Origin: Candidatus Acidulodesulfobacterium ferriphilum
GTDB lineage: Bacteria; SZUA-79; Acidulodesulfobacterales; Acidulodesulfobacteraceae
Length of the DNA: 64,000 bases
Reading direction: 5' to 3'
Assembly (NCBI GenBank): GCA_004195035.1
Contig: SGBD01000005.1
Span: 1 to 64,000 of the forward strand
The notes below the pieces were generated by a model. It ran no database searches. It was not told the DNA's origin and worked only from the letters and a program-made list of their open reading frames with translations. Shown here piece after piece: positions 16,279 to 33,629 of this stretch. The position numbers were made by a program, and so were the translations under genes. The first letter of the stretch is position 1, and every line of letters starts with the position of its first letter.

Positions 16279-17334
16279 TTAAACCATATAAATAAGGGCA
16301 CCCTTTCCCGGAGTTTTTTGTAATACTTTGCCTATTTTGTGCAACGGCTCTCCCGCATCTTTAAAAGCGTGCTCCAGCGCCTTCGATTTTAATTCAGGAA
16401 CCGGCATTACAAGTCCGCCTGAGGTTTCTGCGCCAAAAGCTAACCACAATAAATTTTCATCGACATTTCTCAAGGTGGATACATATTTTGAAAAATATTT
16501 TCTGTTTCGTTTGGTTCCTGACGGGTTTATACCTTTCTTAATTAACTCATATACCCCGTTTATAGCGGGAAGAGCGGATAAATCAATCTCGCATGCGGCG
16601 CCGCTTGCAATCATCATCTCGCTTAAATGCCCGACCAGCCCGAAGCCCGTAACATCCGTAATAGCATTTGGCGATTTTAAAGAAACGGCAAGCTCCGAGG
16701 CTTTTTTATTGAGCTTTGACATAGACAAAGAGGCTTCGTTTAGCGAATCCTTGCTTAAAAAATCCGTACAGATAGCGCTGACGACAAACCCTGTTCCGAG
16801 ACTTTTGGTTAAATATAAGATATCCCCGGGGCTTGCCCCCTGATTAGAATAAATTTCATTTATATTGCAAACCCCCGTAACGCTAAGCCCGTATTTAAGC
16901 TCTTTGTCGTCTATCGAGTGGCCGCCTAAAAGCGCTGCCCCTGCCTCGTTTATCTTATCCAGACCGCCAAGAAGTATCAGGTTGAAAACCTCTTTTTCTA
17001 CTTCCTCAATCGGGAAACAGGCAATATTTAAAGCCGTTATCGGCTTCCCCCCCATTGCATAGACATCCGAAAGCGCATTTGCGGCGGCAATCTGGCCAAA
17101 AGTATAAGGGTCGTCCACCACAGGCGTAAAAAAATCGACTGTTTGAATAAGGCAAGAATCGTCGCTTATTTTATAAACGCCCGCATCATCTTTATACCCA
17201 AACCCGACCAAAACATTATCATTTTTTGGAACAGGCAATTTTTCGAGAATCTTCGAGAGGTCCTCCGGACCTATCTTGCATCCTCAGCCGTGGGCGCTTG
17301 TCAAACTTGTAAGTTTATATTTTTTTGCCGTCAT
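16279..17334 (-). CDS. selD: Selenophosphate synthase, itself a selenoprotein (UGA-encoded Sec at residue 17)
   Basis: Makes selenophosphate from selenide and ATP. The normal frame starts at ATG 17332-17334 and reads MTAKKYKLTSLTSAHG-U-GCKIGPEDL. The in-frame TGA at 17284-17286 is codon 17, exactly where E. coli SelD has its catalytic Cys17, and Lys20 is kept. The full product is 351 residues; a reading from the internal TTG at 17236-17238 would lose the active site. Later glycine-rich ATP-binding motifs (GFGYKDDAGVY, ALLGGHSIDDKE, GFGLVGHLSEM) are intact. It begins 17 bases after the MCE gene. Confidence 0.95.
17258..17272 (-). promoter_or_regulatory. SECIS-like hairpin of selD
   Basis: On the minus strand the mRNA segment AGGTCC-GGA-GGACCT forms a perfect 6-bp hairpin. 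Its apical loop begins with G and lies 17 nt after the recoded UGA. That fits the bacterial SECIS rule as I remember it: apical loop 16-37 nt from UGA with a G in its first two bases. Such elements bind SelB and direct Sec insertion. Confidence 0.8.
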
Positions 17335-21284: not shown

Positions 21285-22745
21285 CTAAAAATATTCGTAT
21301 TCCTTATCTGGAATAGATTTTAACGCTTGTATTATATCTTTAAAATCTATCTCGAGCACGGTCCTGAGATCAATCAGGAATTCATCATTTTTGATTTTTC
21401 CGATGATCGGAACGCCAAAACCGCGAAAAATCCGGCTCAATTTATCGGCGCTTAATGTTTTATGGGCAATGCTTATGGAATATGTTTTGAGTTCGTAATC
21501 CGGCAAAGCTCCGCCTCCTACGATACTTAAATCCTCTATTATCTTAAAATTGTATATATTTTTATTTATATATTCAAGTTTTTTAATTTTATTTAAAAGC
21601 CTGAATGCTTTTCTTTTAATATCTTCTCCGCTTTGCGAAAGAAAAAAAAGGGTAGGTATTCTTTTAACCGCGGTTTCGATATCCAAATATTCAAAAAGGA
21701 CGGCTTCAAGCGCGGCAAGCGTCATTTTATCTATTCTAAATGCCCTGTTTAACGGATTTGACGCAATTAAATCCACATACTCTTTTTTTCCCGCTATTAT
21801 TCCTGCCTGAGGTCCCCCTAAAAGCTTATCTCCGCTAAATGTGATAATATCCACACCTGCATTAACAACCTCCGGCGCAGTGGGTTCGTGAGGCAATCCA
21901 AATCTTTCGATACCCACAAAACTGCCCGAACCCAAGTCCTCCATAACGGGTATACGGTGGTTTTTACCGATGGAAACAATATCTTTGCTCGATAGTTCGC
22001 TAACAAAACCCCTCATTCTAAAATTGCTATGGTGCACCTTTAATAAAAGAGCCGTGTTTTCATTTATATTTTTTTCATAATCTGAAGGCTTTGTCTTATT
22101 TGTGGTACCGACTTCCACTAAAACAGCCCCCGAAGCCTTCATTATGTCGGGTATTCTAAACGACCCGCCAATTTCGATAAGTTCCCCTCTCGAAACTATT
22201 ACTTCCTTTTTTTGTTCCGCACAAAATGATGACAGCGACATAAAAACAGCGGCCGCATTATTATTCACGACGATAGCCCTTTCGCATTTTAAAATTTTTT
22301 GAAGCAGGGATTCCACATGCGAATATCTTTTGCCTCTTTTACCCTCCGTCAAACTAAATTCTAAATTTGAATAGGACGATGATATTTGCGCAACATTTTT
22401 AACGGCTCTTTCCGGTAAAATGGAACGCCCTAAGTTTGTATGGATAACGACGCCGGTCCCGTTGACGACTCTTTTTAAATTAAAAGAAAAATTGTTTAAG
22501 TCATTTTTAAGCTTGCCGGCAAAATATTCAACCTTAAACCTTTCCTCATCGATATTTCCGGTTTCCGCCGTTTCCATATTTAAAAGATTTAAAACATTAT
22601 CTTTTTCCTGTTTTATTAAAGCATTAAGCCTTCCTTTTACAAAATTATAAGAAAAAGCTTTGCTAAGCAATTTAACATCCTTATTTTCAAGGATTTCATA
22701 GATACTCGGAAATTTTCTTAATATATCGTTTTTATTGTGTTCCAT
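21285..22745 (-). CDS. selA: L-seryl-tRNA(Sec) selenium transferase
   Basis: PLP enzyme that converts seryl-tRNA(Sec) to selenocysteinyl-tRNA(Sec) using selenophosphate. The 486-residue protein is full length and the PLP-binding lysine is in TFSGDKLLGGPQAGI near residue 305. Other family motifs are VVNGTGVVIHTNLGRS and VEVGTTNKT. It lies 21 bases downstream of recO on the same strand. With selD (Sec-containing) in the same window, it shows an active Sec pathway; selB and tRNA-Sec are outside the window. Confidence 0.96.
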   Translation of the reverse strand: MEHNKNDILRKFPSIYEILENKDVKLLSKAFSYNFVKGRLNALIKQEKDNVLNLLNMETAETGNIDEERFKVEYFAGKLKNDLNNFSFNLKRVVNGTGVVIHTNLGRSILPERAVKNVAQISSSYSNLEFSLTEGKRGKRYSHVESLLQKILKCERAIVVNNNAAAVFMSLSSFCAEQKKEVIVSRGELIEIGGSFRIPDIMKASGAVLVEVGTTNKTKPSDYEKNINENTALLLKVHHSNFRMRGFVSELSSKDIVSIGKNHRIPVMEDLGSGSFVGIERFGLPHEPTAPEVVNAGVDIITFSGDKLLGGPQAGIIAGKKEYVDLIASNPLNRAFRIDKMTLAALEAVLFEYLDIETAVKRIPTLFFLSQSGEDIKRKAFRLLNKIKKLEYINKNIYNFKIIEDLSIVGGGALPDYELKTYSISIAHKTLSADKLSRIFRGFGVPIIGKIKNDEFLIDLRTVLEIDFKDIIQALKSIPDKEYEYF

Positions 22746-33130: not shown

Positions 33131-33448
33131 TGTAAATTTTCTCCTTTAAAAATTAATTTTAAATTTTAAAAACTTTTAGACCCTAAAACTTTTGGGCCCT
33201 AAAAACTAATTGAATTAAATTGGATTGAAGGCAATTATTAACAAAATCAAAAATTAAACGCACCACTCTCCTTGATAAATTAAGGTTGAATAAAATATCC
33301 CATCAATTTCACATATATCATACTTATATCATTATTTAAAAAAAAATCAATACCTTTTTTTAAACCTTCTGATAAATTTTATAAAATTGAAAAATTTTAA
33401 TCCTGTGATAGACTTTATAATGAACAAAAAAATAAGGAGGTGAAATTT
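33131..33448. other. Divergent intergenic region between pal and the selenopeptide ORF
   Basis: About 318 AT-rich bases. On the pal side lies a 16-bp tandem duplication, AAAACTTTTAGACCCT then AAAACTTTTGGGCCCT (33169-33200), in the presumed pal 5' leader. On the other side a consensus -10 box TATAAT (33416-33421, plus strand) lies 27 bases before the ATG of the small ORF, without a clear -35 box. AAGGAGG (33434-33440) is the ribosome binding site. I see no other gene in it. Confidence 0.6.
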
Positions 33449-33568
33449 ATGAAAAAGGTTTACGAAGCCCCGCTATTTCAGGAAATCCCCGCCGAAGAAT
33501 TTTACAGTTTAATCATGGAAGGCTACGGGATTAAGGATTCGTGCTATTCCTGAAAGTCCTGCAAATAA
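33449..33568 (+). CDS. Candidate selenopeptide, 39 residues with C-x2-U-x2-C tail (UGA read as Sec)
   Basis: The ORF opens at ATG 33449 after an AAGGAGG ribosome binding site with 8-base spacing. Codons 1-34 begin MKKVYEAPLFQEIPAEE and end GYGIKDSCYS. Codon 35 is TGA (33551-33553), and four more codons (KSCK) precede a TAA. If TGA is Sec, the tail is C32-x2-U35-x2-C38. A SECIS-like hairpin follows at the right distance, and SelA and SelD are in this window. The 'MKK-Y-x-P' start with an acidic middle and Cys-rich end resembles many ribosomal peptide (RiPP) precursors. There is no signal peptide and no neighbour on the same strand; no modifying enzyme is beside it. If TGA is a true stop, the product is a 34-residue peptide. 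I know no named family. Confidence 0.65.
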
Positions 33569-33589
33569 GCGCAGTTGGCGCTACTTTGC
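33561..33589 (+). promoter_or_regulatory. SECIS-like two-tier hairpin after the in-frame UGA
   Basis: GCAAA (33561-33565) pairs with TTTGC (33585-33589). After a 2x2 internal loop, AGCGC (33568-33572) pairs with GCGCT (33578-33582), leaving the loop AGTTG. The loop starts 19 nt after the UGA and has G as its second base, matching the bacterial SECIS rule as I remember it and resembling the selD element (17 nt). The stop codon TAA spans the internal loop. Confidence 0.65.
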
Positions 33590-33629
33590 TCACCTGCCTT
33601 CTTTATCAAGTTAAGAAAGGCAGGTGAGC
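33588..33629 (+). terminator. Long hairpin after the selenopeptide ORF, probable terminator
   Basis: GCTCACCTGCCTT (33588-33600) pairs perfectly with AAGGCAGGTGAGC (33617-33629), and CTT/AAG extends it past a single bulged A. On the plus strand it is followed by TTATTT, a weak U-tail; the minus strand has none. It ends against the stop codon of the VOC gene, and its first two bases are shared with the lower stem of the SECIS-like hairpin. Confidence 0.7.

Follow-up and report, generated by a model that had tools for sequence, protein, structure and literature searches.

The gene at 33449 in a genome of Candidatus Acidulodesulfobacterium ferriphilum is only 39 codons long, has a TGA in frame close to its end and stands apart from any apparent partner. 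Is it a true selenopeptide gene, and what would its product be made into? The window, by which we mean the whole stretch of 64,000 nucleotides analysed (positions 1 to 64,000 of contig SGBD01000005.1), comes from a MAG of 1,873,120 bases in 7 contigs that is 97.3% complete and is here called G000; other genomes and their loci are given by G and L labels. The host group and its relatives are bacteria of acid mine drainage and potential sulfate reducers (PMC6776010). Among these relatives are Ca. Acididesulfobacter diazotrophicus AP1 and SZUA-79.

The gene, its signals and the Sec machinery

With the TGA read as Sec, the product has 39 residues, MKKVYEAPLFQEIPAEEFYSLIMEGYGIKDSCYSUKSCK, and the gene and its surroundings contain the following features.

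33449 to 33568, plus strand: selenopeptide precursor gene, 39 codons and a stop codon (ATG at 33449, TAA at 33566-33568)
Within 33449 to 33568, plus strand: leader motifs Y-x-x-P-[LMV]-[FL] and A-E-E-F and core D-S-C-Y-S-U-K-S-C-K, from the comparison of homologues
33551 to 33553, plus strand: in-frame TGA, codon 35 (Sec35), where 31 of 31 distinct copies have TGA or a Cys codon; Sec machinery is present
33434 to 33440, plus strand: ribosome binding site AAGGAGG, seen in the sequence and kept in essentially all homologues
33387 to 33421, plus strand: probable promoter region (TTGAAA...TGaTAGACT, TATAAT), which in the sister genome G002 has its homologue immediately upstream of the radical SAM start
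33588 to 33629, plus strand: long inverted repeat GCTCACCTGCCTT/AAGGCAGGTGAGC, likely the transcript end, between the selenopeptide gene and a convergent VOC gene

A first-pass annotation made from the letters alone had placed the start, the AAGGAGG site, the TGA at codon 35 and the four codons and TAA that follow it exactly, and its array of Cys32, Sec35 and Cys38 agrees both with the end of the product and with the homologues, which keep the UGA position and the Cys three residues on. The TATAAT box that it reported is present at 33416-33421, but its pairing with any -35 box is not clear, and a promoter scan favours TTGAAA-16-TAGACT over it with a score at chance level. A terminator scan of the region 3' of the gene gave no site of the T-run type; hairpins resembling the inverted repeat occur 3' of several homologues. 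With a SECIS element that spans the last codons and extends into the 3' untranslated region, this is a very short selenoprotein gene, and routine annotation overlooks genes of such a length or calls them as a shorter reading frame.

Two genes of the Sec machinery are encoded in the window, as had been recognized earlier.

21285 to 22745, minus strand: selA, L-seryl-tRNA(Sec) selenium transferase (TIGR00474, 561.5 bits)
16279 to 17334, minus strand: selD with an in-frame UGA at 17284-17286 (HGUGCKIG) (TIGR00476, 328.8 bits)

The automatic reading frame call begins selD too late, at 17238. The genome also contains tRNA-Sec (71.6 bits) and SelB (313 bits). Of the 30 family genomes, 5 gave no score for tRNA-Sec above the cut-off, among them G008, which has UGA copies of the peptide gene; there, either not all candidates were scored or the gene is missing from the assembly.

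Conservation beyond the TGA codon

In a search with the peptide profile, the selenopeptide was identified in 27 of 30 genomes of the Ca. Acidulodesulfobacterales/SZUA-79 family, which are mostly MAGs of this one family and do not give independent counts, and in 0 of 356 genomes of other families. The phage and plasmid collections contained no match. We compared 35 copies (25 with UGA and 10 with Cys), 31 of which are distinct. The codon at the UGA position in the distinct copies is TGA in 23 and TGC or TGT in 8, and nothing else, while the residue at +3 is Cys in all 31 (24 TGC, 7 TGT) and the residue at +1 is Lys or Arg in all 31. The codons past the UGA show 2 synonymous and 0 nonsynonymous changes between the window copy and each of G001 and G003, and the whole peptide shows 6 synonymous changes and 1 nonsynonymous change relative to G001. 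The leader is conserved as strongly as the core. The first-pass annotation had regarded homologues that end at the UGA, or that diverge freely after it, as contrary to its reading, and none of the 31 distinct copies behaves in this way; the Cys-for-Sec homologues that it suggested looking for do exist.

Sec and Cys copies occur together in the genomes G007, G008 and G023. Loss of the Sec machinery was rejected as the cause of the Cys copies, since most genomes with such copies retain tRNA-Sec. A second TGA that is found in some copies (for example CKU in G004 and G029) was rejected as a Sec codon because it is placed too near the hairpin loop, and is an ordinary stop.

The SECIS hairpin

The stretch that begins within the last codons of the gene contains a hairpin with two tiers.

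33561 to 33589, plus strand: SECIS element, by RNAfold and comparison of homologues, fitting the bSECIS model in PMC13188914
33568-33582, plus strand: conserved SECIS core, the upper hairpin with stem AGCGC/GCGCT and loop AGTTG, kept in UGA copies

The minimum-energy fold from RNAfold (-12.9 kcal/mol) consists of a lower stem GCAAA/UUUGC, in which 33561-33565 pairs with 33585-33589, a 2x2 internal loop, and an upper stem AGCGC/GCGCU, in which 33568-33572 pairs with 33578-33582 around the loop AGUUG (33573-33577), located 19 nt past the UGA. The bSECIS model, as quoted in PMC13188914, has an upper stem of 4-16 bp, a loop of 3-9 nt with a G at loop position 1 or 2, a loop 16-37 nt after the UGA and an MFE of -7.5 or lower, and the upper stem of 5 bp, the loop sequence, the distance and the energy of the present hairpin all lie within these bounds. 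The rule that the first-pass annotation had given, on the distance of the loop and the position of the G, agrees with this model. The two-tier hairpin that it described was recovered as drawn, but only the upper tier is conserved; the lower tier is private to a few copies, with at least 4 lower pairs in only 3 of the 25 UGA copies.

The hairpin is not unusually stable in comparison with shuffled sequence (z = -0.48), and its energy was dropped as evidence for a SECIS element, so the case rests on the comparison between homologues. All 25 UGA copies have a stem of 4-7 bp with a loop AG[GT]T[GTA] at 18-25 nt past the UGA, a combination of this specific loop and a stem of at least 4 bp that occurs in 0.2% of shuffled sequence, and there is no loss of the hairpin among them of the kind that had been named beforehand as a sign against Sec decoding. 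Only 1 of the 10 Cys copies (G008c) keeps the core. When 15 distinct hairpins are compared, 98.7% of the cells are paired, against at most 70% in slid controls, and changes on both sides are seen at 3 of the 5 pairs. This conservation suggests that the hairpin 3' of the UGA guides Sec decoding.

If the UGA were instead an ordinary stop, the product would have 34 residues, ending in ...DSCYS, and the match downstream would be due to chance. The shortness of the reading frame and a hairpin no stabler than shuffles fit with such a stop, but the codon-level conservation past the UGA, the Cys codons that homologues have in its place and a covarying hairpin that is tied to the UGA copies have already refuted it by comparison, and we give it hardly any credence. 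Judged from the homologues, the gene encodes a real, conserved selenopeptide.

A radical SAM maturase and a PqqD-domain protein in relatives

The selenopeptide gene in most relatives is located just 3' of two genes, one for a radical SAM/SPASM protein of 338 aa and one for a PqqD-domain protein of 86-99 aa. According to their coordinates, the peptide and maturase genes are side by side in 17 genomes, usually together with the PqqD gene, although the adjacent copy in G018 is frame-broken. The maturase is encoded on another contig or far off in G001, G007, G009, G011 and G017, which means that a remote enzyme is common. The partners match the radical SAM/SPASM domains PF04055 and PF13186 and the PqqD domain PF05402 (48 bits). 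The alignment of the maturases contains the motif CxxxCxxC (CNLRCxHC) and seven SPASM cysteines, which are C251, C269, C306, C309, C315, C318 and C336 in the numbering of the G002 protein, with C306 shifted in G004. By its predicted structure (pLDDT 89), the enzyme comes nearest to SkfB, SuiB and CteB, which are RiPP maturases.

The first-pass annotation had likened the start and acidic middle of the peptide to a RiPP leader and proposed a scan for radical SAM genes that co-occur with homologues. The genes for a PqqD-type protein and a radical SAM/SPASM maturase that adjoin the selenopeptide gene in relatives bear out this guess and strongly support the view that the selenopeptides are RiPP precursors. 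The gene was also described as isolated, which is true locally, but possession of the maturase pair is the rule in the family.

Several other features were observed around these genes. Frame-broken and truncated extra copies of the selenopeptide gene are present in G018 and G002. The one in G018 (L047:7057-7176) is a decayed copy with an internal TAA downstream of an intact maturase gene, and the intact copy is located on another contig; in G002 (L042:8713-11805), a gene for a STAND-type NTPase separates an intact copy from one that is truncated at the N-terminus. In several genomes, the gene for a DsrE-like protein, apparently with a signal sequence, adjoins that of the peptide or that of the maturase (L039:6877-7347; L040:10025-10501; L090:6868-7350; L097:331-801; L098:3217-3696), which suggests a tie to sulfur handling. 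Sulfur-carrier genes (DsrE-like, thioredoxin-like and GcvH-like) recur close to several selenopeptide copies, and this recurrence no more than hints at a role in sulfur or metal handling. Small, apparently exported proteins with an NPCG motif are encoded near maturase or peptide genes in the genus g6 (L091:3524-3727; L039:7946-8581; L046:2840-3430), one with NPCGK-like repeats and others with a long C-terminal domain.

Absence of the enzyme pair from the window's assembly

No orthologue of the maturase was found in the window's assembly, a MAG from which a fragment may be missing, nor was any PqqD-domain protein. The first-pass annotation had taken the lack of an adjacent maturase to suggest a remote enzyme or an unmodified product; none is adjacent, but the pair is missing from the whole assembly and not merely remote. 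Since the maturase is absent from an assembly that is so nearly complete, modification in the window's organism is doubtful. The alignment to G002 reveals where the pair would have been.

33416 to 33431, plus strand: deletion junction, at which a segment of ~1.46 kb with the radical SAM and PqqD genes is cleanly absent relative to G002

Positions 33132-33431 of the window correspond to positions 5-274 in G002, and positions 33416-33565 to positions 1739-1890, such that the homology starts at the Pal start codon, reaches almost to the radical SAM start and then continues straight into the ribosome binding site of the peptide gene. Other radical SAM genes in G000 were rejected as the maturase. 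Two of them, at C1:778.8-781.0 kb, come after hemC and a gene of the CobA/HemD type and, by this neighbourhood, look like Ahb/NirJ of heme synthesis, and the remainder reach no more than 24-38% identity, over part of their length.

G001 has the same junction as the window, yet retains the radical SAM and PqqD genes on another contig. Only the first part of the radical SAM gene is left before the peptide gene in G003 (L095:1-308, L096:1-484), and this truncation means that the genus has lost the enzyme a second time, independently. The peptide is also present with no maturase detected in G012, G014 and G019. From its genomic context, the window's gene appears to be an orphaned Sec-RiPP precursor.

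The peptide could be a relict that is decaying and no longer matters after the loss of the enzyme pair in the window's organism, as the deletion here, the partial radical SAM gene in G003 and the broken extra copies in G018 and G002 would suggest. We consider this unlikely. The window copy is not shortened, its ribosome binding site, Sec codon, SECIS element and tail are all intact and its amino-acid changes are few, which is a weak argument against decay, as the loss may be recent. It is also rather doubtful, with some points in its favour, that the product is an unmodified selenopeptide in which Cys-x2-Sec-x2-Cys serves in thiol/selenol redox chemistry or metal binding and which needs no maturase, at least here. 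G000 has neither maturase nor PqqD, yet its peptide is intact and differs from that of G001 by mostly synonymous changes, and G012, G014 and G019 retain the peptide as well. However, a leader as conserved as the core is needless for an unmodified chelator, the gene is placed beside the maturase in 17 relatives, and the maturase-free genomes are MAGs in which the losses may be recent.

Homologous clusters in distant bacteria

To the extent covered by a maturase profile scan of the genomes of 84,980 species, gut Firmicutes, and also a Riflebacteria MAG, have proteins with 43-47% identity. The maturase homologue in these clusters is accompanied by a PqqD protein and by peptides such as MKEYSTPIIQEEDEMLFTKDVWENFSEGNWCFGCTNCNCN and MVKLAYEAPVFEEVEGMVFTKEVWEEFNQGKWCFGCTNCNCN, which have the same Y-x-x-P start of the leader and a C-x2-C-x2-C core (CFGCTNC) with Cys at the Sec position. 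A peptide of the form ...AYEKPIL...CRQCSGCHGCR is encoded in G030, from another family. The Sec form is known here from the Acidulodesulfobacterales/SZUA-79 family only.

In Ca. Acididesulfobacter AP1 (L093:5985-7452), a maturase paralogue (~36% identical) is encoded together with a PqqD protein and a CRQCSSCHACR peptide, and G030 has a similar set (L187). The radical SAM, PqqD and CFGCTNCNCN peptide genes in Firmicutes and Riflebacteria (L129:5001-8607, L133, L128 2465-6088) adjoin a gene for an amidohydrolase-GNAT fusion and one for a stand-alone asparaginyl-tRNA-synthetase-like core protein. This set is shared by distant hosts and has the look of a RiPP pathway, so far undescribed, that includes an aminoacylation-like step. 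Two genomes of another family have a conserved small peptide (...KKGSGKVCRK) encoded between radical SAM genes (L189:4323-4450, L190:3264-3377), which is without Sec, its TGA overlapping the start codon that follows. A candidate VCRKUKS selenopeptide beside two radical SAM genes (G141, G278) was rejected, as its TGA is a stop that shares bases with the GTG at which the following radical SAM gene starts.

A proposed Sec-containing RiPP precursor

We think it very probable that the gene encodes a Sec-containing RiPP precursor, in which UGA35 is read as Sec and a leader for PqqD precedes a core for radical SAM modification, and that the enzymes were lost in the window's genome. UGA35 would be decoded by SelA, SelB, SelD and tRNA-Sec under the guidance of the hairpin. 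The N-terminal two thirds (K-x-Y-x-x-P-x-x-x-x-x-x-A-E-E-F) would be the leader, probably read by the PqqD-type protein, and the core C-Y-S-U-K-x-C would be acted on by the radical SAM/SPASM enzyme with two auxiliary clusters. In the likeliest product, one or more chalcogen atoms of Cys or Sec would be joined to neighbouring carbons as a thio- or selenoether, or there may be another oxidation as in SbtM. PapB with synthetic Sec is a precedent for a selenoether made by a SPASM enzyme (PMC10470005), and SbtM is one for a Sec RiPP (PMC11002830). Loss of the radical SAM and PqqD genes would have left the selenopeptide gene behind the former operon promoter, and the peptide in the window's organism may be an unmodified redox or metal-binding peptide or a relict. 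It is possible, and we put it forward tentatively, that the family is a second, chemically distinct class of natural Sec-RiPPs in which a SPASM radical SAM enzyme and PqqD cross-link Cys-x2-Sec-x2-Cys by an encoded selenoether or similar bond, and that some lineages, including the window's, dropped the enzyme and use the bare peptide as a redox or metal carrier.

Comparison with known systems

The peptide has no match in NCBIfam and Pfam, and the earlier statement that no described family fits holds for these collections, but the kind of system, a Sec-RiPP with a SPASM radical SAM enzyme, is known from SbtA/SbtM (PMC11002830, PMC13188914). Among the Sec peptides of a selenoproteome review (2026) is the entry 'Selenobacteriocin, TIGR04081, SGUG' (PMC13188914), and the thio(seleno)oxazole RiPP SbtA/SbtM (Lewis et al. 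2021, as cited in PMC11002830 and PMC13188914) is a Sec RiPP whose maturase is a SPASM radical SAM enzyme. Both systems have a short precursor with an in-frame UGA followed by a SECIS element, a SPASM radical SAM maturase, and Cys in place of Sec in some members. However, the SbtA core is SGUG rather than CxxUxxC, the SbtM model comprises 516 aa and ends in the radical SAM part while the present enzyme has 338 aa and a separate PqqD protein, and the present family has Cys homologues in Firmicutes and Riflebacteria. Both Sbt profiles fail: TIGR04081 gave nothing in the window's genome even at E <= 10 and nothing with the peptide itself, and the maturases score 128-130 bits against TIGR04082 (cut-off 350), which is one among many SPASM families matched. 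Membership of the peptide in the selenobacteriocin system, for which the shared principle and the TIGR04082 score could be cited, is very unlikely in view of the silent precursor profile, a maturase score far under the cut-off and the different core. On the tests run, the family appears to work like an Sbt-type Sec-RiPP but to stand outside that family.

The best-scoring families for the maturases are TIGR04303 and TIGR04340 (~130 bits each, cut-off 400). The GeoRSP/ACGX systems that they describe, and related CxxC-type peptides, resemble the present family in maturase score, a PqqD-type partner and a Cys-rich target. They differ in that the scores are about one third of the curated cut-offs, the precursor is unmatched and the models describe no Sec; the geo PqqD model gives 19-26 bits (cut-off 100). 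The Y-x-x-P motif and a stand-alone PqqD-domain protein are shared with lasso/PqqA-type precursors, Y-x-x-P being a motif of lasso leaders, but the present clusters have a radical SAM gene instead of lasso cyclase or protease genes.

In ranthipeptides and sactipeptides (PapB, CteB, SkfB, AlbA), SPASM radical SAM maturases likewise act on cysteines of ribosomal peptides, the defining bond being a thioether between a Cys sulfur and a beta/gamma or alpha carbon, and SkfB, SuiB and CteB are the nearest solved structures to the present maturase. The identity is low (~20%), the PapB model gives 90-92 bits (cut-off 340), and Sec is genetically encoded in the present family. PapB is reported to form a selenoether with artificially supplied synthetic Sec (PMC10470005).

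SbtA/SbtM is the only Sec-containing RiPP system found in the literature searched, and the present family, which differs from it in leader, core and maturase, is independent of it and would be a second, unnamed family of Sec-containing peptide natural products. The natural Sec and Cys versions in one genome and the Cys-only relatives in gut bacteria allow Sec and Cys to be compared cleanly as substrates of one radical SAM enzyme, and this pair is the natural counterpart of the artificial Sec substitution with PapB.
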